IMG/VR virus record: IMGVR_UViG_3300036846_000555 | Location: 58,350 to 122,349 of that record | Length of the DNA: 64,000 bases | Strand: one strand, 5' to 3' | Origin: a virus | Part shown: piece by piece, positions 29,821-43,651 of the stretch | Numbering within the stretch: position 1 is the stretch's first letter | How the letters are laid out: each line of letters opens with the position of its first letter | Notes under the pieces: generated by a model | The model's input: the letters and a program-made list of their open reading frames with translations, nothing else | What the model was told of the DNA's origin: nothing | Database searches by the model: none | Translations under genes and position numbers: made by a program

Positions 29821-30161
29821 GCCTGTCCTTCACCACGAGCCGCGACGGCGCCCGGCGAGCAACGGTCCGGCTCGACCACCGAGTCGGCCTGGAGCAGCTC
29901 GCGACGGCAGCGGCGCTGGCGCTGGACGAGGGCTACCTGGAGGGCGAGGATCTCGACGCGCGCGCGGCCCGCCTGACCAGGCGCGACATCGAGCGAGAGC
30001 TGCGCGACCGACTGCAGGCCGGTGGCGACGACGGCTTCCTGTTCGTCGGCGAGCGCAGCTTCATGGGCTACGAGCTGTTCGACGAGACCGTCGCAGGCGC
30101 CTGCCGTGCCCGCGTGCTGGCGCTGTGGCCCGAGCTGACCCCGACCGAGGAGACGACATGA
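29817..30161 (+). CDS. Hypothetical protein
   Basis: 114 residues. SRDGARRATVRLDHRVGLEQ, helical middle (LTRRDIERELRDRLQAGG), tail LTPTEETT from the ardA ribosome site. Unknown. Confidence 0.65.
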   Translation: MSLSFTTSRDGARRATVRLDHRVGLEQLATAAALALDEGYLEGEDLDARAARLTRRDIERELRDRLQAGGDDGFLFVGERSFMGYELFDETVAGACRARVLALWPELTPTEETT

Positions 30162-30772
30162 CCATGACCACCACCGAGACACCACGCATCTGGATCGCCG
30201 ACCTGGCCGCCTACAACAACGGCGTGCTGCACGGCCGGTGGGTTGACGCCACCGACGCCGCCGAGCTGACCGAGGCCAAGGACCAGATCCTCGCCTCCAG
30301 CCCCGAGCCCGGCGCGGAGGAGTGGGCCATCCACGACTACGACGGCTTCGGCAGCGACCTGACCTACAAGCTCGGCGAGTACGCCAGCTTCGACACGATC
30401 GCGAAGCTCGGCGCGCTGATCGAGGAGTACGGCGACGAGTTCCTCGCCTACGTCTCCGCGGTCGAGCCCGCCCCCGAGGACATTGACGAGCGCAGCTTCC
30501 AGGAGGCCCGCCGCGGCGCCTGGGACAGCGAGGCCGACTGGGCCCGCGACCGCGTCGAGAGCCTCGGCTACGAGGGCGTCCAGCCCGGCGAGTACGTCCC
30601 CAAGGACGACCGCGGCTGGAGCAGCAGCGACGGCGCGATCGACGTGATCGACCTGCTGCTGAATCACCTTGACCTGGACATGGTCGCGCGCGACTGCAGC
30701 GCCAACGGCGAGGTGGACTTCGCGACCGTCAACGGCACCGTTTACGCCTTCGACCCGAACGCGGGTAGGTGA
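30158..30772 (+). CDS. ardA: ArdA-like antirestriction protein
   Basis: 204 residues. Opening IWIADLAAYNNGVLHGRWVD, then EEWAIHDYDGFGSDLTYKLG and EYASFDTIAKLGALIEEYGD, then a C-terminal DLDMVARDCSANGEVDFATV: the ArdA family, an acidic B-DNA mimic that occupies type I restriction enzymes. Family members are usually about 165-180 residues; the extra residues lie in the middle (PAPEDIDERSFQEARRG). Two hairpins follow, so it ends a transcription unit expected to be expressed early. Confidence 0.9.
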   Translation: MTMTTTETPRIWIADLAAYNNGVLHGRWVDATDAAELTEAKDQILASSPEPGAEEWAIHDYDGFGSDLTYKLGEYASFDTIAKLGALIEEYGDEFLAYVSAVEPAPEDIDERSFQEARRGAWDSEADWARDRVESLGYEGVQPGEYVPKDDRGWSSSDGAIDVIDLLLNHLDLDMVARDCSANGEVDFATVNGTVYAFDPNAGR

Positions 30773-31983: not shown

Positions 31984-32150
31984 CCACGCACGTGTACGTG
32001 ACGGACGAGAGCACGCTCCTGTACGTGCTGGAGATCGGCGCTCCCGACGCCGCCGTCGTCGAGGACGTGCTGACCGGCAACATCGTCAAGATGAGAGCGT
32101 CGGCGCTGCGCGAGTGGCGCGTCGTCACCCCGATGGAGAGCGATGGCTGA
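31953..32150 (+). CDS. Small hypothetical protein
   Basis: 65 residues from GTG 31953 (GGAGCGCGAGGC upstream), overlapping the previous gene by 31 bases. TESTLLYVLEIGAPDAAVVE-like beta/alpha core (sequence THVYVTDESTLLYVLEIG). Ends inside the portal start. Unknown. Confidence 0.55.
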   Translation: MAVAERTRALATHVYVTDESTLLYVLEIGAPDAAVVEDVLTGNIVKMRASALREWRVVTPMESDG

Positions 32151-34191
32151 CTGGCTGAACCGGCTGCAGGAGGCCGCCGAGATCCGGACCGGCAAGAAGG
32201 TCGTCGACGCCGACTACGTCGAGCTGCTGGAGGCCTCAGACGTCGAGCGGCGCGCCATGCAGAAGGAGCTGGATCTCCTCGGCTGGTACGTGCTCGACTA
32301 TATAGGCGGGCAGCCTCAGGAGGTCAAGCCTCAGGAGCGCCGTCGGATGGCGGCGCAGGCGCGCATGGTGTGGGTGCAGGACCCGGTCGCTGGAGCCAAC
32401 GTCGAGCTGTCCTGCAACTTCATCTTCGGCCGCGGCGTCCCGAAGCCGAAGGCCGCCGACGAGAAGGTGCAGGAGGTCATCGACGAGGCGTGGGACGACT
32501 CGGACAACAAGGCGGTGCTGACCACCTACCCGGCGCAGGTGGCGCTCTGCACCGATCTCGTACTCCAGTCCAACCTGTTCCTGCTGTTCTTCCAGGGCGA
32601 CGACGGCAAGGTCAAGCTCGGCCTGCTCGACCACGACTCCGTCGAGGACGTCGTCCGCGACTCCAACAACCGGCTGCGGGTCCTGTACTACGTCGCCCGG
32701 CGCCGCACCTACGGCTGGGACTTCGACAACGACCGGCCGTCCATCCGGGCTCAGATGGACAGCCAGGATCCCAGCAAGCCGCGGGTCATGTACTACCAGT
32801 CGCTCGCCGCCACCGACTCCGAGACCGGCGAGCTGGACACCGAGGACAACCAGTGCCCGCCGACCAAGCTCGGCGACGGGCTCGTCTACCACATCGCCAT
32901 CAACCGCGGCTCCGAGCAGGTGTTCGGCGTCCCGGCGATGCGCCGCCTCGTCAAGTGGATGGCCGCCCTGAACGACTTCATGGCCGCCCGCGTCGACCTG
33001 ACGCAGGCCGCCGCCGCGTTCATCATGCGCCGGTCGGTGAAAGGCTCACCGCAGCAGGTGGCGAACATCGCCGCCAAGGCCATCTCCCGCCGGTCGAACC
33101 TCGCGGCGACGTCGATCGACGACCCGTCAATGGGCATGATCCAGCCGGGCCCGCGACCCGGCTCGATCCTGAACGACTCCGACGCGGTCACGACGCAGCC
33201 GTTCACCGTCCCGACGCAGGCGGCGCAGGCGGCGCAGGACGCGCAGATGATCCGCTCCCAGATCAGCGCCGCGACCTGGCCGCAGCACTACCTCGGCGAC
33301 CAGTCCAACGCGAACCTCGCGACCGCGACCGCGCTGGAGCTGCCGGTCGTCAAGAAGGTCGAAGCGTTCCAGGAGCTGTTCGAAGGCCTGTTCCGCACGT
33401 TCATCGACCGGTCCATCCAGCAGGCCGTCGACAACGGCACGCTGCCGACCGCGCTCACGCCCGAGGAGCGCGCCAGGCTCAAGTCAAAGAAGCCGGAGAA
33501 CCAGGTGCCGGGCGCGCCGGGGATCACGCCGCCCGCCGCTCCGATCCAGACCGAGCCGCCGTCGTCGCAGACCGAGCCGAGCACGAACGGTGCCGCGCCA
33601 ACCGCGCTCAGCGCGGGCTACGAGGGCCAGACCGAGGACGAGGAGGACACCGAGCGCGACCTGAGCTATGAGTTCTCGATGCCGAATCCGCTGAAGCGCC
33701 AGATGGCCGACCTGGTCAACTCGATCGCGAACATCGCGCGCACCTTCGACCCGAACAACACCAACGTCGAGCTGTCCCGCACGCTGCTGGGCGTCGCACT
33801 CGGCCAGGGTCTGGAGCTGGCCGACCCGGCCGCCGCCGTCGAGCGGATCCTGCCCGAGGGGTACGTCGACCCGATGCTCGCGGCGCAGATGCAGGCAGGC
33901 GGCGGCGGAGGTCCGCCACCGCCGCCGCCGCCGCTGATCCCGGACGAGCCGAATATGTTCGGGCCCGGCGGCCCGGCACCCGGCGAGGGTCCGACGCCCG
34001 GCCAGGGCCCGGACGGCGAGCAGAACCCGTACGGCGCGCAGGGCTTCAGCTCCGCATACCAGGGCAACCAGGGCCAGATCGGCGAGGCGTCCGCGCGCCA
34101 GGCGGAGCTGGAGGCGCTGCTGGAGCAGGAGCTGGGCGCGATCGTCGACGGGCTGCTGGCCGAGGCCAGCACGAACGGCGACGGGCACTAG
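32143..34191 (+). CDS. Portal protein
   Basis: 682 residues, ATG 32143. Pattern of a dodecameric portal: N-terminal helix (WLNRLQEAAEIRTG), RRRMAAQARMVWVQDP, FIFGRGV, CTDLVLQSNLFLLFFQGDDG, then FGVPAMRRLVKWMAALNDFM and a stem region with SQISAATWPQHYLGDQSNAN, then ATALELPVVKKVEAFQELFE. This matches SPP1-gp6-like portals. The last 200 residues are a Pro/Gly-rich linker (a run of Gly then Pro near 585) and an acidic helix, likely internal to the capsid. Next to the MuF gene, as usual. Confidence 0.9.
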   Translation: MADWLNRLQEAAEIRTGKKVVDADYVELLEASDVERRAMQKELDLLGWYVLDYIGGQPQEVKPQERRRMAAQARMVWVQDPVAGANVELSCNFIFGRGVPKPKAADEKVQEVIDEAWDDSDNKAVLTTYPAQVALCTDLVLQSNLFLLFFQGDDGKVKLGLLDHDSVEDVVRDSNNRLRVLYYVARRRTYGWDFDNDRPSIRAQMDSQDPSKPRVMYYQSLAATDSETGELDTEDNQCPPTKLGDGLVYHIAINRGSEQVFGVPAMRRLVKWMAALNDFMAARVDLTQAAAAFIMRRSVKGSPQQVANIAAKAISRRSNLAATSIDDPSMGMIQPGPRPGSILNDSDAVTTQPFTVPTQAAQAAQDAQMIRSQISAATWPQHYLGDQSNANLATATALELPVVKKVEAFQELFEGLFRTFIDRSIQQAVDNGTLPTALTPEERARLKSKKPENQVPGAPGITPPAAPIQTEPPSSQTEPSTNGAAPTALSAGYEGQTEDEEDTERDLSYEFSMPNPLKRQMADLVNSIANIARTFDPNNTNVELSRTLLGVALGQGLELADPAAAVERILPEGYVDPMLAAQMQAGGGGGPPPPPPPLIPDEPNMFGPGGPAPGEGPTPGQGPDGEQNPYGAQGFSSAYQGNQGQIGEASARQAELEALLEQELGAIVDGLLAEASTNGDGH

Positions 34192-34217
34192 TTTGCGCTA
34201 GCCGGTCAAGGCGCCCG

Positions 34218-34223
34218 TAGCCT
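34218..34223 (+). promoter_or_regulatory. Leaderless -10 box of MuF gene
   Basis: TAGCCT, 6 bases, GTG 34230; no ribosome site. Confidence 0.55.
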
Positions 34224-34229
34224 TCAGGC

Positions 34230-37200
34230 GTGGCGGTCCCCGACCAGCAGGCACCACCGCAGACGCATCCGCAGGTTCAGCGCCTGCTCGACGCTGCGCA
34301 GACCGGCGCGACCATCGCCGCCGCCGGTCAGGTCACGAAGGCGGCGACCGTCGGTCCGGGAATCGCGGTCGCGGCGCCAGCGGTCGCCGCGGGCAAGATC
34401 GTATCGGCGGCCGCCGAGCCGGTGGAGTTCGGCATCAAGGTCGCGCTCGCGCTCCGGATCCTGCGCCGCCTGTTCCGCGGCCACAAGATGGAGAGCGCGA
34501 GCTGGCTGGAGAACGAGCTGCGCCGCCGCTTCCCCGACGCCGACCCGGCCGTGATCCGCGCCGCGGTGCAACGCGAGATGACGTTCGAACAGGCGTTCCA
34601 ACGCAAGGCGCTGGCCCGCACCGAGACCGACATGCACGCCGCCGGGCAGCTCCCGACGCCGCGGGCGCGCGCCAAGCGTGCCGGGGAGATCATCGCCCGC
34701 GAGAAGCACTACAACGCGCTGCGCGAAAAGGCGCTGCTGAACCGCGCGGTCGCGCATGTCGAGAACGCCGGGGTCAAGGCCGTCTCACCGCAGGGCGCGA
34801 AGTGGGTGCTCGGCCAGCGCAAGAACCACACGCTCGGGTGCCTGGCGCTGGCGGGCAAGAACTGGCCGTGGGAAGTGCTGGACATGATTCCGCCGCCGCT
34901 GCACACCGGCTGTGGCTGCAGCCTTGCGCCGCTGAAGCCGGGCGACACGGTGCCGCCGGTGGCGCAGGCGCTGCGCGCCGCGCAGGCCGCCATGGCGCTG
35001 GAGGAGGCTGTCCGCAGCGTCGCTGACGCCGGGGAGATCAACGCCTACCTGGACGGCTGGCCGGTCCGGCCGAGCGTCGAGCGCGCGCTCATGCAGCTCA
35101 CCGAGGCCGACTACAAAGAAGCGCTTCATCCCCGTGGCCGCGGTGGCCGCTGGGTGCAGATCCTGAACAAGATCAAGGCCGCGAAGATGGACGACATCAC
35201 CGACGTCGAGGGCCACAGCGTCATGCGGCTCAAGGACGAGGGCTACAGCGTCCGCGTCGGCGCCGGGAACCGGGTCAGGACGCACGATCCGGAGGTGGTC
35301 GCTGACGCGATCGTGAAGCATCTGGACGAGCGGGCGAAGCTGGGCACGCCGGTGACGCTGGCGAACATGGACGACAACTTCCAGAAGTGGTTCAGCCCGC
35401 AGAAGCTGGACGGCGGCAAGGAGACCCATCCGAAGTCCGGCTACGACGTGCATGTCGGCAAGTGGCTGTCGGTCAAGCAGCCCGAGCCCGACGTCGACGG
35501 CCCGCCGATCTTCAAGGTGACCGACTACGGCGCGCACGCTGGCGAGCAGATGTTCCCGACGGATGCCGGGACGCAGCCGATCCGGGAGCTGTACCGCGGC
35601 ATGAGCATCGACGAGTGGAACCAAGCCGTCGAACGTGGGTACATCCAGTCAGACCGGCGCGGCGTGATCGGAAGCTGGGAGGGCACGAACGCCGGGATCG
35701 ACCCGCAGACGTCGCAGTCCTACCTGCCGCGCGGCGCGGAGTCGGTGATCGCGAAGATCGCCGTGCGGCCCGAGGATGGGTGGTTCGCCCGCAACGAGGA
35801 CGGTTACCTGCGCACACGCAACCGGGTCCCGATGAGCCAGGTGACGGCCGTCTCGCCCGTCCTGTACAAGGATCCCGACGAGGGCCTGTTCGTGCGGTCT
35901 GACTCAACCTCGGCTGCTAAACTCACAAAGGAAGCTAATGGACAACGAACAGCTCAAACAAGAGGCGCTGCTGGGAGCGGTGGACGAGCACGGGGAGCCA
36001 ACCTGGTTTCACTCGCCTCGCTCGATGCGTCCACCGACGCCGGATACAAGCGCTACACCGACGCCGTCCGAGCCAACCCCCACTCCGAGTACGTCACCCA
36101 GCCGTCCCAAGCAGAGCTAGGCGCCAAGCGGGTCTGGCTCTCGGACGACGGTCAGACCGGCGTCACCGTCTCGGCGGACGGCGAGGTCGGGAACCTGTTC
36201 GCCAACAACGACCAGGGCGCCGGAGGCGCGGCGCTTGATCACGCCGTCGCGAACGGCGGCACGTGGCTGAACTGCTTCGACGGGGCGCTCCCGAAGATCT
36301 ACCAGCGCCACGGGTTCACCGAGGTCGCGCGCCTGAAGTTCGACCCGGAGCACAAGCCTGAGGGCTGGGACATGGCGAGCCTGGACTCGCCCGACGTCGT
36401 GTTCATGGGCCACGGCGGCGAGCCGGTGCATCCGGTGCCGACGTTCACCGACTGGGACACTGCCGAGCGCGCCGTGCTGGAGCACATCGGGGCGCTGCAG
36501 GAGGCGCACTGGACCGAGTGGCTGCACCCCCGCGGCCGGGGTGGTGTCTGGGTGGACGCGATCCACCACGAGATCAAGGAGCCCAAGGCCGAGAAGCCGC
36601 ACGCGGAGTTCACCGGCGAGGACTTCGCCCGGGCGATGGACGGCTTCACGCACGGCGGGATCACCGCGGTGCGCGCGAACCGCACCAGTGTCCAGAACCT
36701 GTACGGCGAGGTGTGGCTGAACCTGCAGAAGCAGGGCGAGATCCGGCCGGTCGGGCTGGCGCGCGTGATCGTCAAGCCGCCCAACCACCGCGGCGAGCGT
36801 GTCGCGGAGCTGGCGAACATCTACCTGCACGAGGACGAGCAGGAGCACGGCTTCGGCCGGGCGTTCACCGACTACTTCCTCAAGACGCTGCGCGACGGCG
36901 GCGTGGACAAGGTCAACGTCGAGGCCGTCTCCGTCGGCGGCTACGCGTGGGCCCGGCGCGGCTTTCAGTGGACGGCCGACAAGAAGGCCGAGCAGCAGCG
37001 GATCGTCGCCGACGCCAAGACCGACGGGCGCTGGGCGGAGATCGCCCGGCGCACACCACCGGCGGCGCTGGCCGAGTTCGAAGGCAAGATCGAGCGCGGA
37101 GAGTTCTCCTCCGAGGCGGAGCTGGCCGCCTACGGCATCGACCAGGGATGGCGCGAGTCTGACCCGGCGACCGGCGCGAGCACCGGCGCGCGGATGTGGC

Positions 37201-38036
37201 TCGGCAAGCAGCTCATGCTCGGCTCGCGCTGGAAGGGATCACGGCCGGTCACCGTCACGGCCAGCCTGCAGGAGGCGCTCGACGAGCTGGAGCTGAGCGA
37301 GCGCGCCGAGGAGATCCGCCTGCTGTGGGATCCGGCCAAGCACGCGCGAGGCTGGCACGGGCACTTCGCCGAGATGCTCAAGCAGCTCCCGAAACCAGGC
37401 CTGCGCGGCCGCGGCGGCGGGCGGATCGAGGTGACCGACGGCCACCGCGTCACCCGCACCCGCCACGGCTTTGAGGTCACGCATCCCAGCGGCCACACCG
37501 AGACGGTCGCGACGGCGGAGGAGGCCGCCACGATGGTCCACGACCGCTACGAGTCCGCGCGGATGGAGGCCGAGGTCAAGGCAGAGCTGGCCACCTCCGC
37601 GATCGAACGCGAGACACGCAAGCAGCGCGAGCGCGAGCAGCGCAAGGCCGAGATCGCCAGCCGCACCTTCTACCGCTTCGAACCACCCGAGATCGCCCGC
37701 AGGATCGCGGAGACCGGCGAGATCTGGGGACTGCCCGGCACGCAGGGCCGCGGCACCACGGAGGTCCGCGCTCTGCCGGGCCGCCCCGACGCGAGCCAGA
37801 TCGCGTACGAACGCAGCCACAACGGCCGGGTGGTGGTCGAGTTCCACACCAACGTCGCGCCGGACAACCCGTACGGCGAAACGCACTTCTCATGGTCGCC
37901 CGAATCGTCCGCGCAGCGTCGCAACGAGGAGTCCTCCGGCGTCGTCCACGAGCTGAAGTTCGAACCCGAGACGACCAAGTACGGGCACGTGCCGGTGGCG
38001 AAGCTGCACGTCCACCACGTCCACCCCGGTAACTAA
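34230..38036 (+). CDS. MuF-type head protein fused to ART-like and two GNAT-like domains (polyvalent protein)
   Basis: 1268 residues. About 1-265: MuF head-morphogenesis module (FEQAFQRKALARTETDM, ending PPPLHTGCGCSL). About 297-309: LHPRGRGGRW box. About 310-560: ADP-ribosyltransferase-like (LYRGMSIDEWNQAVERG; ESVIAKIAV). About 640-710: GNAT-like (WLNCFDGALPKIYQRHGF). About 762-775: second LHPRGRGGVW box. About 850-915: second GNAT-like (LANIYLHEDEQEHGFGRAFT; AWARRGF). About 1031: degenerate box (WDPAKHARGWHGHF). C-terminus unassigned. MuF proteins with such cargo are known as polyvalent proteins, thought to be packaged and delivered with the DNA. A low-G+C seam at 35901-35970 may be an old gene boundary. 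Confidence 0.85.
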   Translation: MAVPDQQAPPQTHPQVQRLLDAAQTGATIAAAGQVTKAATVGPGIAVAAPAVAAGKIVSAAAEPVEFGIKVALALRILRRLFRGHKMESASWLENELRRRFPDADPAVIRAAVQREMTFEQAFQRKALARTETDMHAAGQLPTPRARAKRAGEIIAREKHYNALREKALLNRAVAHVENAGVKAVSPQGAKWVLGQRKNHTLGCLALAGKNWPWEVLDMIPPPLHTGCGCSLAPLKPGDTVPPVAQALRAAQAAMALEEAVRSVADAGEINAYLDGWPVRPSVERALMQLTEADYKEALHPRGRGGRWVQILNKIKAAKMDDITDVEGHSVMRLKDEGYSVRVGAGNRVRTHDPEVVADAIVKHLDERAKLGTPVTLANMDDNFQKWFSPQKLDGGKETHPKSGYDVHVGKWLSVKQPEPDVDGPPIFKVTDYGAHAGEQMFPTDAGTQPIRELYRGMSIDEWNQAVERGYIQSDRRGVIGSWEGTNAGIDPQTSQSYLPRGAESVIAKIAVRPEDGWFARNEDGYLRTRNRVPMSQVTAVSPVLYKDPDEGLFVRSDSTSAAKLTKEANGQRTAQTRGAAGSGGRARGANLVSLASLDASTDAGYKRYTDAVRANPHSEYVTQPSQAELGAKRVWLSDDGQTGVTVSADGEVGNLFANNDQGAGGAALDHAVANGGTWLNCFDGALPKIYQRHGFTEVARLKFDPEHKPEGWDMASLDSPDVVFMGHGGEPVHPVPTFTDWDTAERAVLEHIGALQEAHWTEWLHPRGRGGVWVDAIHHEIKEPKAEKPHAEFTGEDFARAMDGFTHGGITAVRANRTSVQNLYGEVWLNLQKQGEIRPVGLARVIVKPPNHRGERVAELANIYLHEDEQEHGFGRAFTDYFLKTLRDGGVDKVNVEAVSVGGYAWARRGFQWTADKKAEQQRIVADAKTDGRWAEIARRTPPAALAEFEGKIERGEFSSEAELAAYGIDQGWRESDPATGASTGARMWLGKQLMLGSRWKGSRPVTVTASLQEALDELELSERAEEIRLLWDPAKHARGWHGHFAEMLKQLPKPGLRGRGGGRIEVTDGHRVTRTRHGFEVTHPSGHTETVATAEEAATMVHDRYESARMEAEVKAELATSAIERETRKQREREQRKAEIASRTFYRFEPPEIARRIAETGEIWGLPGTQGRGTTEVRALPGRPDASQIAYERSHNGRVVVEFHTNVAPDNPYGETHFSWSPESSAQRRNEESSGVVHELKFEPETTKYGHVPVAKLHVHHVHPGN

Positions 38037-38052
38037 CGTCGTGCGCTAGAAT
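38031..38052 (+). promoter_or_regulatory. Palindromic-type promoter, leaderless
   Basis: AACGTCGTGCGCTAGAAT, -10 TAGAAT (38047-38052), 8 bases before ATG 38061. The left arm is degenerate. Confidence 0.65.
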
Positions 38053-38060
38053 TGGGTGAA

Positions 38061-38408
38061 ATGGCCAAACCATGGACAAGCGACCCGAACGCACCGGCGG
38101 TGCCTGACGAGTTCTTCCAGATGCGCCAGGTGGCCGTCCTGCCGCTCGGACCGGACTGGTTTGAAGGCCAGGGCGTGGCGATGAAGGAGGAGGAGATCGA
38201 GGACAACTGGCCGCTGCTGTACGGCACGATCCGCACCGACGCCGGAACGTTCATCGTGGTCGGCACGCCCGGCGCCGACAGCGTCGAAGTGTGGGCGTCC
38301 CGAGACATGACGCCGCAGGAGGCCGCCGACGAGCTGGAGGCGACACTGGAGCACGGCGCCGAGTCGACCGTGTTCGACAGCGACGCCGGATACTGGGGCG
38401 GGTCCTGA
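38061..38408 (+). CDS. Hypothetical protein between polyvalent genes
   Basis: 115 residues from ATG 38061 (TTG 38052 is inside the -10 box). PNAPAVPDEFFQMRQVAVLP, then GTIRTDAGTFIVVGTPGADS and DMTPQEAADELEATLEHGAE. The last segment is an acidic helix like those before the LHPR boxes. Possibly a head-associated accessory. TGATG overlap with the next gene. Confidence 0.65.
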   Translation: MAKPWTSDPNAPAVPDEFFQMRQVAVLPLGPDWFEGQGVAMKEEEIEDNWPLLYGTIRTDAGTFIVVGTPGADSVEVWASRDMTPQEAADELEATLEHGAESTVFDSDAGYWGGS

Positions 38409-41400
38409 TGGACTGGGCGACCGCGGCGGCGATTGTCGCCGACGGGATGCCGAGCCTGTCCGATCCGCCCGACGCGCCCGGCGACGACTACGAGTTCTGG
38501 CAGCGAGTCAAGGCGCTCGTTGACAGCAACGGCAACGGCGAGCTGAGCGAGGCGTACCTGGAGGATCTCCACCCCCGCGATCGCAGTGGTAAGTGGATGG
38601 AGAAGCTGGGGCTGTCGCATCTGCGCGAGGTCGGCGGAGCGCCCCGCGACGAGCTGATGGGCAGGACGCCGAAGGACATCGACTACGTCGCGGCCGAGAC
38701 GCCGGAGCGGATCAAGCAGGCAGTCGAGCAGGCAGGCGGAAAGGCCGAGGAGCTGATGGTCCGCGACCGGCTGGTCGGCGTCCGCGCCACGCATCCCGAC
38801 CTGCCGCCCGACGGCGTCGAGATCGTCCCGCCGCGCATCGAGCAGTCCACCGGCGCCAGCCGTCACGACTTCACCATCGTCCCGCACCCCGGCCTGGACG
38901 GCTCAGCCACACCCGAGCGGATGCTCGCCGACGACGCGCAGCGCCGCGACTTCACCGTCAACGCGCTGTACCGCGACCCCGTGACCGGCACGCTGACCGA
39001 CCCGACCGGCCGCGGTGAGCAGGACGCGCGCAACCGGGTGCTGCACATGGTCCACGACACCAGCTTCCAGGAGGATCCGCTGCGGATGCTGCGCGGCGCA
39101 CGGTTCGTCTCCCAGCACGGGCTGGAGCCCGACGCCGAGACGCTGGCGGCGATGCGCCGCGACTCCGGCGGTATGACCGCGCTGACCAACAAGGGCGTCT
39201 CCGGCACCGTCCAGACCGAGCTGGGCAAGCTGCTGATGGGCGACAGCCCGGGCAAGGCGCTGCGCGTCATGCGCGACACCGGAATGTTCCAGACGCTGCT
39301 GCCCGAGCTGGCGCCGATGGTCGGATTTGATCAACGTTCGCCCTACCACGAGCACGTGCTTGACGAGCACACGTTCAACGTCATCGACGAGCTGGCGCGG
39401 ATGGGCGCCAGCCACGACGCGCGGCTGGCGGCGCTGTTCCACGACTCGGGCAAGCCGCTGACCGCCAACCTCAAGCCGGGCACCGACACGTTCCGCTTCC
39501 ACTCCCACCCCGAGCACGGCGATCACGCCGACGTCGGCGCCGACATCGCGCGCAGCACCCTGAACCGCCTGAACTACCCGGCCGACACGATCAACCACGT
39601 CACCGGGCTCGTCCGCGATCACATGCTCACCGCCGTCGAGAAGCCGACGCCGGTCAAGGCGCGACGTCTGCGCGCCGCGCACTCCGACCGGTTCCTGACC
39701 GACCTGCTGGACCACAAGCAGGCCGACATGGAGGGCCATGGCGAAGCGATCGCCAAGAGCCTGGAGGGCGTCCACAAGCTACGCGGCCTGCTGGCCGAGA
39801 ACGCCACGGCGCCGCGGTCGCTCAAGGATCTGAACGTGACCGGCAGCGACCTGATCGCCAACGGCATGGAGCCCGGCCCGCGAATGGGCGCCGTGCTGCG
39901 CCAGCTCCTCACCGAGGTGGTGGTCGACCCGACCCTGAACCGCCACGAATGGCTGCTGCACCGCGCCGAACGCCTGGCGGCCACGCCGGTGCAGGAGGCC
40001 GAGCTGGAGGAGGCCAAGAGCATCTACGAGGAGGTGCTCCACCCCCGCGACAGGCTGGGCCGCTGGATGCTCAAGCGCGGCTACAACGTCCATTTCGAGC
40101 AGGCCGACAAGCCGTCGGCGACCCGCAAGAGCAAGACGATCACCGTCCGCGGGCCGACGCCCGAGCACCAGTACGACGCGCTGCTGAACGCCGGGGAGGG
40201 GCTCACCGGCGTCTTCCCGAAGGGCCCGCCGCGGCCGATCGAACGCGCCGCGATGGTCAACGCGGCCCGGCCGACACGCGTCGAGCAGCGGCTGCGGACC
40301 ATCGACAAGATCGCCACCCGCGCGCACGCGGGCCAGACCGACAAGTCCCAGCGCCCGTACATCGACCACGTCCACGCGGTCGCCGACTCGGTCGGGCCCG
40401 AGGCGCGTCCCGTTGCGCTGATGCACGACGCGCTGGAGGACACGCACCTCACCGAGCGCGACCTGGAGCCGGTCCTCAGCCCCGACGAGCTGGACGCGGT
40501 CAAGCTGCTGACCCGCCCGCACAGCCCCGACTACAACTACGACGACTACATCGACCGGATCGCCAACAAGACCGGCAAGGCCGGGGAGCTGGCGCGCGAG
40601 GTCAAGCGCGCCGACCTGCAGCACAACCTGGGGCGGCTCGGCAACCTGGACGCCAAGACGCAGGCGCGGCTGCGCCCCAAGTACGAGGACGCGCTCCGGC
40701 GCCTGGCGCGCACGCCGCACGTGTTCGAACAGGAGGGCGCGCCGGATAACCTCTCCGGGCTCAGCGCCGAGCAGGTCGAAGCCAACCTCCGCAGCTTCTA
40801 CCAGGGCAGCCTCAAGTCACCCGACCACCACACCGACCTGGCGTGGTACGACATCCAGCACGCCCTGATCGACAAGACGGCCAAGGAGCACGGCATCGAC
40901 CCGGTCACGTGGGCGGCGATGATCTCGGCGACGTCGCCGCAGCTCGCGTGGGACTTCACCACCAAGGCCGGGGTGTTCAAACGGCCGAACATGGACCTGG
41001 CCGAGAACGCGCTGCGGCTCGCGCGCCGCTACCCCGACGAGCCCGCGCCCAAGCTGGTCGACCGGCTGCTGAAGGCGTCGGAGGGCAAGAAGGGCCCGAG
41101 CGAGGTGGGCGGTCTCGGCGGGTCGGTCGAGAACGCGATCAGGATCTACCGCGGCGAGGATCCCGACAAGGTGCTCAACGCGCCGAAGACCCGCAGCTTC
41201 TACAACAACCTCGTCTGGCCCGAGCGCAGCACCACGGTCACCGTCGACGCGCACATGGCGCGCGCCGCGATGGGGATCGTCGAGAAGAAGGGCTACGCGC
41301 GCGCCGACAAGGCCATCGACGTCAAGGCCAAGGGCAGCGGCTACACGTGGGTGGCGGACATCGTCACCAAGCTCGCTGACGAGTACCACGTCCGGCCGCA

Positions 41401-41497
41401 CGAGATGCAGGCGGCCATCTGGATGGAGCGCAAACGCCAGTCCGACGCGCGCGAGGCTGCCGAGAAGGCCGCCAAGAAGGCAGCTAAAAGCGCATGA
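38408..41497 (+). CDS. Polyvalent protein: CCA-adding enzyme, HD hydrolase, alarmone-hydrolase-like HD, C-terminal unknown domain
   Basis: 1029 residues. About 1-50 acidic helix, then LHPRDRSGKW (about 53-62). About 70-260: tRNA nucleotidyltransferase head and neck (GGAPRDELMG, DIDY, RRDFTVNALYRDP, EDPLRMLRGARF). About 310-410: HD phosphohydrolase (YHEHVLDEHTF, LFHDSGKP, HPEHGDHADVG). About 543-553: LHPRDRLGRW. About 630-770: (p)ppGpp-hydrolase-like HD (RAHAGQTDK, PYIDHVHAVAD, LMHDALEDT, VKRADLQHNL), as in Mesh1/SpoT. About 790-1010: helical domain with WYDIQHALIDKTAKEHGID and SFYNNLVWPERSTTVTVDAH, reminiscent of HhH DNA-glycosylase-like phage domains. Likely virion-delivered host-takeover enzymes; inference. 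Confidence 0.85.
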   Translation: MDWATAAAIVADGMPSLSDPPDAPGDDYEFWQRVKALVDSNGNGELSEAYLEDLHPRDRSGKWMEKLGLSHLREVGGAPRDELMGRTPKDIDYVAAETPERIKQAVEQAGGKAEELMVRDRLVGVRATHPDLPPDGVEIVPPRIEQSTGASRHDFTIVPHPGLDGSATPERMLADDAQRRDFTVNALYRDPVTGTLTDPTGRGEQDARNRVLHMVHDTSFQEDPLRMLRGARFVSQHGLEPDAETLAAMRRDSGGMTALTNKGVSGTVQTELGKLLMGDSPGKALRVMRDTGMFQTLLPELAPMVGFDQRSPYHEHVLDEHTFNVIDELARMGASHDARLAALFHDSGKPLTANLKPGTDTFRFHSHPEHGDHADVGADIARSTLNRLNYPADTINHVTGLVRDHMLTAVEKPTPVKARRLRAAHSDRFLTDLLDHKQADMEGHGEAIAKSLEGVHKLRGLLAENATAPRSLKDLNVTGSDLIANGMEPGPRMGAVLRQLLTEVVVDPTLNRHEWLLHRAERLAATPVQEAELEEAKSIYEEVLHPRDRLGRWMLKRGYNVHFEQADKPSATRKSKTITVRGPTPEHQYDALLNAGEGLTGVFPKGPPRPIERAAMVNAARPTRVEQRLRTIDKIATRAHAGQTDKSQRPYIDHVHAVADSVGPEARPVALMHDALEDTHLTERDLEPVLSPDELDAVKLLTRPHSPDYNYDDYIDRIANKTGKAGELAREVKRADLQHNLGRLGNLDAKTQARLRPKYEDALRRLARTPHVFEQEGAPDNLSGLSAEQVEANLRSFYQGSLKSPDHHTDLAWYDIQHALIDKTAKEHGIDPVTWAAMISATSPQLAWDFTTKAGVFKRPNMDLAENALRLARRYPDEPAPKLVDRLLKASEGKKGPSEVGGLGGSVENAIRIYRGEDPDKVLNAPKTRSFYNNLVWPERSTTVTVDAHMARAAMGIVEKKGYARADKAIDVKAKGSGYTWVADIVTKLADEYHVRPHEMQAAIWMERKRQSDAREAAEKAAKKAAKSA

Positions 41498-41510
41498 TGT
41501 GTGCTACGAT
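41489..41510 (+). promoter_or_regulatory. Palindromic promoter-operator site
   Basis: AGCGCATGATGTGTGCT, -10 TACGAT (41505-41510); it contains the stop of the previous gene. Confidence 0.85.
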
Positions 41511-41524
41511 ATGTGTGGAATGAC

Positions 41525-43651
41525 ATGATCGACCCGACACGACAGCCCCTCACCGTCGACGACGGCCCCCTTGACCTGGAGCCGCCGGACGACGAGCTGC
41601 AGGAGTGGGTGTCCGGCGGAGGTCTCGACGACGTCGTTGACGGTCTGATCGCCGCCAAGGACGTGCAAGAGGCCAGCTACGCCGAAGAGCTTCACCCCCG
41701 TGGCAGGGGTGGAAAGTGGATTCGCAAGCTCGGCGGGCCAGCGCGCGAGATGAGCGGAGACGAGTGGGCCGACTTCAAGGACAGGGCGCGCGCCGACCCG
41801 TTCTCTCACGTTCACCCCGGCGACGACGCCGACCCGATCGTCAACGCGCTGCACCAGATCGACAGCGGCTGGACGATGAAGATGTCCAAGAACCGCGACG
41901 AGCTGCCGACCGGCAGCCTGCCGTTCGGCGTCGAGGGCGTCACCCGCTTCGACAAGCAGGTCGGTCCCGGCGAGACGCCCGACTCGCTGGTGCTCCACAT
42001 GCGCCAGAAGGAAGGCGGCGGGCTGGAGGTCATCAACGCGGGCCACGGGTCGATGGTCTGGGACCACATGATCGCCACGCCCGAGATGCGCGCTGACGAG
42101 GAGCGAGTGTGGAAAGAGGGCCAGGCCCAGATCGCGGCCCAGCAGGCCGAGCGCGAACGCGAACGCGACGAGCAGGGACGCAAACAGGCTCAGACCATCG
42201 CCGCGATCGGACCGGCGGTCACCAGCGGCAACACCGAGGCGCTGCGCGCCGCACTGGGAGGCCACAGCATGAGCGGGGCTGTCGGGCTCCTGGCCGCCGC
42301 CGGACTTCAGCATCGCGAGCGTCTCACCGACGCGAACGAGAAGAGCCAGATCGACATCCTTCGCGGCGAGCATGGTGAGACCGTGAAGATCGTGGGTCGG
42401 GCGCCGGAGAAGGACTGGTTCAAGGAGATGGAGGACACGGTCGACCAGGCGCTGGACCCCAACGGGCAGATCGACGACCGCCTCGTCACGCAGGCAGCGA
42501 CCGCGCTCCGTCCCGAGGGCGACCGGCGCCCCGACGATCCGGAGGGAGCGGCAGCGTGGCGCGCCCGGCGCGACGCGCTCGTCCAGCGGCTGGCATCCCA
42601 GCACTACACCTGGGTCGGCCGGGCCGAATCGCCCCAGGCCTACCCTGACGTCGGCCTGTGGGCCACCCTGCAAGGCGAGGACGGCAACCAGTACTGGGTG
42701 GACTGGGGCGGCAACCTGCAATCGGCCACCAAGCATGCGCAGGGCGACTCCGAGGCCGTCGGGGACCGAGCCGTGATCCGCGGGCGACGCGACGACCGGC
42801 GGCTGACAGAGGAGCAGAGGCGCGGAGGCGTCACCGATGTGCGGATCACGCCCAACCCGCAGGGCGGCAACCGCACCCGGCTACCGGACGGCCAGGCCCC
42901 GAAGACCGTCGGTGAGCTGCTGATCGACACGCTCGGCCGCGCCGACGAGCTGGGACGGAAGTACGACACGGGCGTCAGCGTGCAGGCCGTCGTCCACGAC
43001 GTCGTTCCCGACGGTTCCGCAGCCGTCCACGAATGGAACGGCACGATCTCGATCGACGAGCGCTACCTCGATGACATCAAGAAGTACCTGGACACCCGCG
43101 CGCTCGTGGCCAAGCACGCCGAGCACGGCATATCGCCGATCAGCGACCGGGAGCACCTGGACTTCTACAACGCCCTGGAGATCCTGCAGCACGAGATCAA
43201 CCACGGCGTCGGCGTCAACGGCGGCATCGACACCAAGAACTACCAGGGGCTCGGCAAGAACGTCGAAGAGGGGCTCACCGAGGAGACCGCGCGCCTGGAC
43301 GTCGCCGACTGGCTGCGCTCCTACGGCATGACCGACGTGCTCGCCGCGGTCAAACGCAACCCGGACGATTGGCGCGTTCAGGGCACCTACTTCGACTACC
43401 GCACGCAGCTCAAGAAGCTCATGGACGACGCGGGCCTGAACGACGAGCAGCGGCGAGCGAAGCTCCGCCAGATGAAGTTCCAGATGACCCCGAACCAGCA
43501 GTACGCGGAGATCATCCGGCTGGCGCAGGTCAAGCGGCCGAACGTCACCGACCTCGGTGCTGCGCTGCCGTCGCCCGGCCTGCCCGCCCGGCTGGAGTTC
43601 CAGCCGGTGGTCAACCCCGACCTGTCCGACATCCGCGAGGAGGTGAGGTAA
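41525..43651 (+). CDS. Polyvalent protein with HExxH metallopeptidase domain
   Basis: 708 residues from ATG 41525; the ORF's earlier ATG overlaps the -10 box. About 1-54 acidic, then LHPRGRGGKW (about 56-65). About 70-190: domain with WTMKMSKNRDELPTG and DSLVLHMRQKEGGGLEVINA. About 190-460: charged helical linker, then a WATLQGEDGNQYWVDWGG segment. About 470-620: zincin with ALEILQHEINHGVG (HExxH) and EEGLTEETARLDVADWL as the likely third ligand helix. Could mature head proteins, cleave the boxes, or act in the host; undecided. Confidence 0.8.
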   Translation: MIDPTRQPLTVDDGPLDLEPPDDELQEWVSGGGLDDVVDGLIAAKDVQEASYAEELHPRGRGGKWIRKLGGPAREMSGDEWADFKDRARADPFSHVHPGDDADPIVNALHQIDSGWTMKMSKNRDELPTGSLPFGVEGVTRFDKQVGPGETPDSLVLHMRQKEGGGLEVINAGHGSMVWDHMIATPEMRADEERVWKEGQAQIAAQQAERERERDEQGRKQAQTIAAIGPAVTSGNTEALRAALGGHSMSGAVGLLAAAGLQHRERLTDANEKSQIDILRGEHGETVKIVGRAPEKDWFKEMEDTVDQALDPNGQIDDRLVTQAATALRPEGDRRPDDPEGAAAWRARRDALVQRLASQHYTWVGRAESPQAYPDVGLWATLQGEDGNQYWVDWGGNLQSATKHAQGDSEAVGDRAVIRGRRDDRRLTEEQRRGGVTDVRITPNPQGGNRTRLPDGQAPKTVGELLIDTLGRADELGRKYDTGVSVQAVVHDVVPDGSAAVHEWNGTISIDERYLDDIKKYLDTRALVAKHAEHGISPISDREHLDFYNALEILQHEINHGVGVNGGIDTKNYQGLGKNVEEGLTEETARLDVADWLRSYGMTDVLAAVKRNPDDWRVQGTYFDYRTQLKKLMDDAGLNDEQRRAKLRQMKFQMTPNQQYAEIIRLAQVKRPNVTDLGAALPSPGLPARLEFQPVVNPDLSDIREEVR

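Follow-up and report, generated by a model that had tools for sequence, protein, structure and literature searches.

Candidate virion effector precursors with repeated tags and predicted maturation-protease sites in a tailed phage

For few systems (T4, phage P1 and phiKZ-like phages) is it known by what means a phage selects, loads and releases the enzymes to be injected. The internal proteins and Alt of T4 carry capsid-targeting propeptides and are cut by gp21 at [L/I]-x-E, and some of them are ejected (PMC9026906). Head and ejection proteins of the SPN3US/phiKZ type, as far as the consulted part of the source describes them, are cut at A-x-E (PMC10052503). MuF polymorphic toxins of temperate phages, which consist of MuF followed by an effector domain, are encoded among the clustered packaging genes (Jamet et al., 2017, PMC5576092); according to a word search, that paper mentions neither cleavage or proteolysis nor a motif. 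Polyvalent proteins combine unrelated enzyme domains in one polypeptide, are encoded beside packaging genes and are proposed to be injected; they include MuF and portal fusions as well as GNAT, NUDIX, LPD1 and ART-PolyVal domains, and processing by built-in peptidase domains has been proposed (Iyer et al., 2017, PMC5512222). In the part of that article drawn upon here, a word search found neither linker nor tRNA nucleotidyltransferase, and an inter-domain tag or a prohead-protease site is not described.

In the window, i.e., the whole 64-kb stretch of phage DNA that was analysed, three consecutive ORFs (P1, P2 and P3) contain five strict copies and one degenerate copy of the box LHPR[GD]RxGxW, all in frame and on the + strand. 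This bears out the initial annotation, which had noticed a repeated box in three consecutive proteins. The composition-based chance expectation for the strict box in P1, P2 and P3 together is 6.5e-6 matches, and a six-frame scan of the window found no further LHPR[GD]RxGxW outside the three ORFs. The residue numbers first given for the boxes of P1 were off by 3-7 residues only (actual starts: 299, 765 and 1037), and those for P2 and P3 fit, provided that internal ATG starts are taken. The portal gene and the elements of P1 are:

32143..34191, + strand: portal gene, immediately preceding the effector genes; match to the PHROG portal family with E 2e-28
34230..38036, + strand: P1, consisting of a putative MuF-like head domain (residues 1-259), which resembles head-morphogenesis proteins in fold, and three tagged units behind it
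34998..35009, + strand: LEEA (residues 257-260), predicted cut ending the MuF part; invariant in 13 MuF homologues
35097..35108, + strand: LTEA (residues 290-293), predicted cut preceding tag 1, with L and E unchanged in all 13 homologues
35124-35153, + strand: tag 1, LHPRGRGGRW; H, P, R, R, G and W invariant in 13 homologues
36081..36341, + strand: part of unit 1 (residues 618-704), matching PHROG 2563
36495..36506, + strand: LQEA (residues 756-759), predicted cut before tag 2
36522-36551, + strand: tag 2, LHPRGRGGVW; a GNAT unit lies behind it
37266..37277, + strand: LQEA (residues 1013-1016), predicted cut before tag 3, 22 residues upstream of this degenerate tag
37338-37367, + strand: tag 3, degenerate, KHARGWHGHF (WDPAKHARGWHGHF in context); kept in the L075 orthologue

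In favour of a MuF-like identity of the N-terminal part of P1 are C and H..C.C residues that are invariant among the MuF homologues, as well as a structure comparison, which matched it to head-morphogenesis and minor capsid proteins; a Pfam match to MuF was obtained for 1 of the 13 homologues (E 0.027) and none for P1 of the window. In the AlphaFold model of P1 1-630 the MuF part alone is usable, confidence being low from residue 289 on, with a pLDDT below 50 in the box region. Of the acidic helix that had been proposed to precede each box, the acidity holds on average (net charge of -3.5 over 45 residues, as compared to 0.0 in random stretches of the same proteins). PHROG 2563, matched within unit 1, also occurs in Microbacterium phages, where it lies behind MuF and is GNAT-like.

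P2 and P3 are organized as follows:

38291..41497, + strand: P2, a predicted propeptide, a CCA-adding enzyme unit and an HD_4 + DUF7178 unit; likely start ATG 38408
38543..38554, + strand: LSEA (residues 85-88), predicted propeptide removal in P2
38567-38596, + strand: P2 tag 1, LHPRDRSGKW
39989..40015, + strand: VQEA and LEEA (residues 567-575), where the two enzymes of P2 are predicted to be separated
40037-40066, + strand: P2 tag 2, LHPRDRLGRW
41501..43651, + strand: P3, a predicted propeptide and one unit of no recognised family
41663..41674, + strand: VQEA (residues 55-58), predicted propeptide removal in P3
41690-41719, + strand: P3 tag, LHPRGRGGKW

The CCA-adding enzyme lies behind the first box of P2 and HD_4/DUF7178 behind the second, and the earlier claim that a new enzymatic domain follows the box is true of the Pfam-recognised domains (CCA enzyme, HD_4/DUF7178 and GNAT). 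P3 contains a zinc-peptidase-like sequence, HEINH, near residue 556, with a weak metallopeptidase match (E 0.063). Neither P2 nor P3 gave a match to MuF.

Scans of related metagenomic phages revealed about 100 strict boxes in long ORFs, with 3-8 per large contig, and one box in the Gordonia phages GodonK/Phendrix; chance ORFs were taken out by hand before the box profile was built. The box marks the start of movable units, comprising GNAT, CCA-adding enzyme, HD/DUF7178, Zeta, NUDIX, cytidylate kinase and HicA. One type of unit may stand alone or lie inside a MuF protein or another polyprotein, with the box at the boundary, and the GNAT unit behind tag 2 of P1 recurs in other contexts. This shuffling supports the view, put forward at the outset, of a repeated protein-level tag on interchangeable effectors. 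In stand-alone ORFs, i.e., P2 and P3 (as had been noted), GodonK gp67, L028 and the HicA ORFs, the tag is found near the N-terminus. Two supposed rearrangements were withdrawn: an internal position of the P3 unit in L009/L035, where the clustering had linked the units indirectly, via an additional domain in L019, and a swap of the CCA and HD/DUF7178 units in L017, of which 'CCA second' alone stands.

The core of the box, [WFY]xExxHPR...G[KQE][FW], represents a shortened version of a much more widespread tag, apparently unnamed in the literature, into which tag 3 of P1 fits through an aromatic residue at -5. A pattern for this wider tag in the correct register matched at least 120 further stretches, on proteins of the portal, MuF, S78-protease and polyvalent types, compared to 8 matches of an out-of-register control pattern. 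The tagged proteins occur in a head-gene or effector context, and the tag is also present inside an ORF that encodes a protease-capsid region as well. These matches confirm that HPR-type boxes follow MuF and portal modules elsewhere. Among cultivated phages, tblastn with tag peptides of 29-34 residues returned GodonK/Phendrix as the sole credible matches; the wider tag is not countable there by short-peptide BLAST, which is too insensitive. The tag is not universal, since it is absent from Microbacterium phage Caron (MuF-GNAT) and from Streptomyces phage Araceli, in which portal and MuF are followed by ADP-ribosyltransferase.

The wider form runs into Gly/Ser-rich linkers and units shuffle at the box, both of which would suit a neutral flexible joint, retained since modules recombine there. 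This explanation is quite improbable, however, given that H, P, R, the aromatic residue and E hardly vary among widely differing proteins, even at N-termini that need no joint, and given the 8 matches of the out-of-register control against at least 120 in the correct register. Moreover, the codon choice of the box is as varied as background, and DNA homology is therefore not what is kept; with a codon entropy close to background, a DNA element or recombination site is ruled out.

A second element lies upstream of the boxes: [LIVM]-x-E is found 7-12 residues upstream (E at -7 to -12) in 84 of 102 boxes, with a null of 7.6%, and the position of E peaks at -8 and falls between -7 and -10 in 66 of 100. 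Eight of the 18 boxes without L-x-E at this spacing belong to the N-terminus of the peptidoglycan-binding protein, and some others lie in truncated ORFs or have sequences related to L-x-E. L-x-E-A also recurs within the protease-scaffold, is conserved at the N-terminal junction of the capsid protein (about two dozen relatives) and does not vary at the MuF end (13 homologues). Protease-scaffold, capsid and portal together contain 18 [LI]xE[AG] motifs against 3.3 expected (p 3e-9), and control motifs in these proteins are flat. The protease model strongly matches named phage capsid maturation proteases; its fold matches solved structures weakly (herpesvirus proteases, best E 0.12), and a sequence search against PDB gave no match. 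Because L-x-E-A is common to the boxes, the capsid junction, the protease-scaffold and the MuF end, division of the polyproteins into effectors is probably the work of the maturation protease; L-x-E-A could also be a helix feature.

The initial annotation had considered a processing tag, which holds as regards the tie to processing signals and head proteins, but the predicted scissile bond lies 7-10 residues upstream, outside the box. As the capsid and scaffold L-x-E sites occur without any box, the box is disfavoured as the cut site itself. The fixed spacing to L-x-E might instead indicate a recognition element or exosite by which the box directs the nearby cut, but these box-free sites, together with the existence of the wider tag without L-x-E, make this very improbable: in the wider tag family, L-x-E occupies the box-upstream position in 13 of 146 cases, which is chance level. 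Since L-x-E belongs to the protease and is at chance in that family, processing and tag are two different elements. In GodonK the tag is present and L-x-E absent, and the alternative site proposed there was chosen after inspection.

Another explanation leaves the proteins uncut: box and leader would form a capsid-targeting signal that binds scaffold, portal or capsid lining, with L-x-E as a helical part of it. Stand-alone ORFs do have the tag near their N-terminus, as a loading signal would require, and the wider tag lacks L-x-E yet sits on the same head and effector proteins. Nevertheless, this is unlikely, as chains that already contain MuF have two to four more tags, needless for loading, and L-x-E-A also occurs at the capsid-protein junction and the MuF end with no tag directly after it. 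A tag that served packaging only would fail to explain the repeated internal tags, because the MuF part could package P1 untagged.

We therefore favour, as reasonably likely, that P1, P2 and P3 are precursors of virion effectors made of exchangeable cut-and-tag cassettes, which would be cut by the protease in the prohead with the tag retained. The cassettes are conserved and shuffled, and share a motif with the head proteins; each comprises an acidic leader, a predicted L-x-E|A site, the tag aromatic-x-E-x-L-HPR(G/D)RxG(K/R)W and an effector. The P1 chain would be anchored to the head by its MuF-like domain, a role that in P2 and P3 might be taken by the N-terminal acidic propeptide of about 50 residues, comparable to the propeptides that target T4 internal proteins to the capsid. 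Within the prohead, the maturation protease would cut after the Glu of L-x-E, in the same kind of sequence as on the major capsid protein and on the protease's own scaffold. This would presumably release MuF plus three effectors from P1, two from P2 and one from P3, six in all. Each freed effector would have the tag, which is distinct from the cleavage site, close to its new N-terminus, where the tag would most likely hold or position the effector in the filled head, or feed it out with the DNA on infection. A broader proposal, which we regard as quite possible though short of probable, is that [WFY]-x-E-x-x-HPR...G-[KQE]-[FW] serves head-carried proteins in many unrelated tailed phages as a general address label, placed on portal-, MuF-, protease- and capsid-linked effectors, and that lineage-specific protease sites just upstream cut the strings into labelled effectors.

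Cassettes of this type suggest how phages might load, trim and label proteins that are injected into bacteria. The compact arrangement gives exact bonds and an exact element, and the tag is present in cultivated Gordonia phages. Effector discovery could become a motif search, with at least 120 stretches already matched, and if the address-label proposal is true, injected effectors could be predicted genome-wide from nothing but the label. Such cassettes would also mean that some polyvalent proteins are precursors, comparable to animal-virus polyproteins, rather than giant multi-activity enzymes.

With polyvalent proteins the locus shares disparate enzymatic domains in one chain (CCA, HD_4 and DUF7178 in P2; MuF-like and GNAT in P1; NUDIX and Zeta in chains of relatives) and a position near packaging genes, the effector genes following directly after the portal gene, likewise in GodonK. 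The cut sites, however, match the phage's own maturation protease and not built-in peptidases as proposed in the consulted part of that work (PMC5512222). P1 resembles the MuF polymorphic toxins in having a putative MuF-like domain followed by an effector domain near packaging genes, but carries three tagged units instead of a single variable C-terminal toxin domain, and P2 and P3 are without MuF. A lineage-specific, Glu-directed motif common to capsid, portal and ejected proteins is also described for the SPN3US/phiKZ type, which differs by its A-x-E motif and by N-terminal propeptides only, with no common tag reported in the part of the source consulted (PMC10052503). The T4 internal proteins, as read from sequence, share the acidic leader or propeptide and Glu-directed [L/I]-x-E sites; as with gp21, the phage has [L/I]-x-E in its capsid protein and scaffold too. 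In T4, single units lose their targeting peptide, whereas here effectors are strung together and the tag would be retained, since it lies after the predicted cut.

Three consecutive ORFs preceded by the portal gene encode the proteins P1, P2 and P3:
34230-38036, plus strand: P1
38291-41497, plus strand: P2
41501-43651, plus strand: P3
Where P2 and P3 start is not certain: ATG at 38408 (P2) and an internal Met (P3) are plausible alternatives. Together, the ORFs contain five exact copies of the box LHPR[GD]RxGxW, where composition predicts about 7e-6, and one degenerate copy; a six-frame scan of the 64 kb detected no further boxes outside P1-P3. The parent viral contig (G000:C1, 122,349 bases, of which the window covers positions 58350-122349) encodes two more box proteins outside the window:
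C1:10672-13485 (L097): Zeta-toxin protein of 937 residues with a degenerate box, RRILRGRGGRFAGSLGGK
C1:20166-21596 (L098:166-1596): peptidoglycan-binding protein (two PG_binding_1 domains); its canonical box, the contig's sixth, lies near the N-terminus
A homologue of the Zeta-toxin protein (L042, 48% identical) carries a canonical box, LQEVDWTEVLHPRGRGGKW, and homologues of the peptidoglycan-binding protein (L012, L024, L061, and others) run on into a second box and effector unit.

About 57 kb separate the portal and effector genes (window 32143-43651) from the genes for protease-scaffold, capsid, sheath and tape-measure proteins (C1:31721-41497); in the relative G002, the capsid gene is also more than 50 kb from the main box cluster. 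A VanY-type endolysin gene (43926) adjoins the portal/effector genes, and an ArdA antirestriction gene (30125-30772; Pfam E 9e-25) lies just upstream of the portal.

A degenerate DNA pattern of the box matched 93 stretches in viral contigs, which are metagenomic and in several cases fragments; this first scan was restricted to CTN/CGN codons and W, so that frequencies are lower bounds. The profile built from 86 non-redundant copies, leaving out chance ORFs, reads L(-10), E(-8), A(-7), aromatic(-5, 94%), E(-3, 76%), L(-1, 88%), H-P-R-[G/D]-R-x-G-[K/R]-W, followed by I-x-K-L-G (negative positions are upstream of the box). Searched with this profile, four large relatives yielded eight boxes apiece, two others yielded five and three, and GodonK a single one. 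Among cultivated phages, tblastn detected the box only in Gordonia phages GodonK and Phendrix, around residue 26 of a 1479-residue protein directly after the portal. Codon variety within the box is close to background, and hence the peptide, not the DNA, is conserved.

Four tests agree in pointing to L-x-E-A as the predicted cut site. [LIVM]xE with E at -7 to -12 precedes 84 of 102 boxes (null 7.6%). In the major capsid protein, relatives as distant as about 48% identity keep a conserved motif, mostly [LV][EQR]EA[DA]S[KR]ADF, that separates an N-terminal stretch of variable length from the capsid core; in the most distant proteins LEEMDTRFDF or VQETETRADF stands in this place. Among 149 predicted contig proteins, [LI]xE[AG] clusters in the protease-scaffold, capsid and portal proteins (18 observed vs 3.3 expected, p 3e-9), whereas four control motifs do not. 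Finally, in 13 MuF-like proteins LEEA is invariant where the MuF part ends, as is L-x-E ahead of the box. The box of the C1:20166 peptidoglycan-binding protein lacks a preceding L-x-E. The C1:31721 gene product matches named capsid maturation proteases from phages of Clavibacter and Arthrobacter (E 1.3e-8 and 8.3e-8) and, judged by fold, is probably a maturation protease. From these sites and this protease, the following products are therefore predicted:
P1: MuF 1-259; excised peptide of 33 residues; effectors 293-758, 759-1015 and 1016-1268
P2: propeptide; effectors 88-574 and 575-1068
P3: propeptide; effector 58-716

A longer tag form was indicated by LQEARMLLEGKWDASLHPRWPKGTPRAGEF in the relative G036 (L171), which has the same protease type. 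A scan with HPRxPxGxxxxG[KQE]F returned at least 120 stretches (frequencies of this wider tag are likewise lower bounds), against eight for a control pattern differing by one base. Of 133 non-redundant copies, 97% carry W/F at -5 and 77% carry E at -3; neither position was part of the search pattern, and both offsets match those of the box. Within single proteins (L274, L275, L260) the long form alternates with the short one, and one 1767-residue protein (L205) has five tags. The 47 wider-tag proteins scanned contain portal, MuF, S78-protease, capsid and peptidoglycan-binding domains as well as polyvalent-type effectors (ADP-ribosyltransferases, ART-PolyVal, NUDIX, DUF7178, InPase, Zeta, GNAT, 2H). 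One ORF joins several such parts:
L225:3727-7872, minus strand: 1382 residues; two tagged units, then a region with matches to prohead-protease/major-capsid proteins from other phages
L-x-E upstream of the wider tag is at chance level (13/146), and cut site and tag are thus separate elements, joined in the window's group. Among the open-access papers searched, we found none printing the wider motif with its core [WFY]xExxHPR...G[KQE][FW]. In Nostocoides jenkinsii (L104, NZ_HF571038.1), neighbouring ORFs start with MSVHDESQHPRGRGGKW and MSVQPRVKPGVPTGGQYA, the latter type also matching, weakly, plasmids of Pseudarthrobacter and Arthrobacter, e.g., NC_011879.1; the tag may reach other mobile elements.

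GodonK has no match to the C1:31721-type protease and no L-x-E ahead of its box. The 53 GodonK proteins checked contain 11 copies of L[VT]A[ASG], ten of them in head-cluster proteins, a number that includes the copy just ahead of the box:
NC_048176.1, gp66-gp76 (L105): L[VT]A[ASG] almost confined to head-cluster proteins and the position just upstream of the box in gp67
As a candidate cut motif of another protease it is only a lead, the motif having been chosen after inspection.

Splitting proteins at their boxes and comparing the pieces shows, at the level of sequence, that the units behind boxes are exchangeable. The P1 GNAT unit is 61% identical to a stand-alone ORF (L028), with similarity beginning at most four residues from the box, and is the third unit in the MuF chains of L056 and L017. 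The L061 peptidoglycan-binding protein and the L076 MuF chain share a Zeta unit at 73% identity, and the CCA-enzyme unit takes first place in the window, in L056 and in L090, but second place in L017. The box moves together with its downstream effector. The set also includes NUDIX, cytidylate kinase, DUF7178 and LPD1-like units, plus a small HicA ORF:
L168, L169, L170 (contigs G002, G005, G003): ORFs of 141-159 residues; tag DPSHxxWDEILHPRxRxGEF joined to a HicA toxin domain
In this arrangement, a toxin-antitoxin toxin resembles phage head cargo.

The simplest reading of these sequences is that tagged strings would enter the prohead through fusion to MuF, portal or capsid, or by means of an acidic propeptide, and would be cut inside it by the phage's own protease, so that each effector would end up separate and carry the tag near its N-terminus. 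Since the tag would survive the predicted cut and recurs where MuF would already package the chain, it more probably serves in retention, DNA association or exit with the DNA than in entry alone. The predicted cleavage has a counterpart in phage T4, where the site of gp21 is [L/I]-x-E (PMC9026906), resembling the conserved L-x-E-A ahead of window-type boxes.
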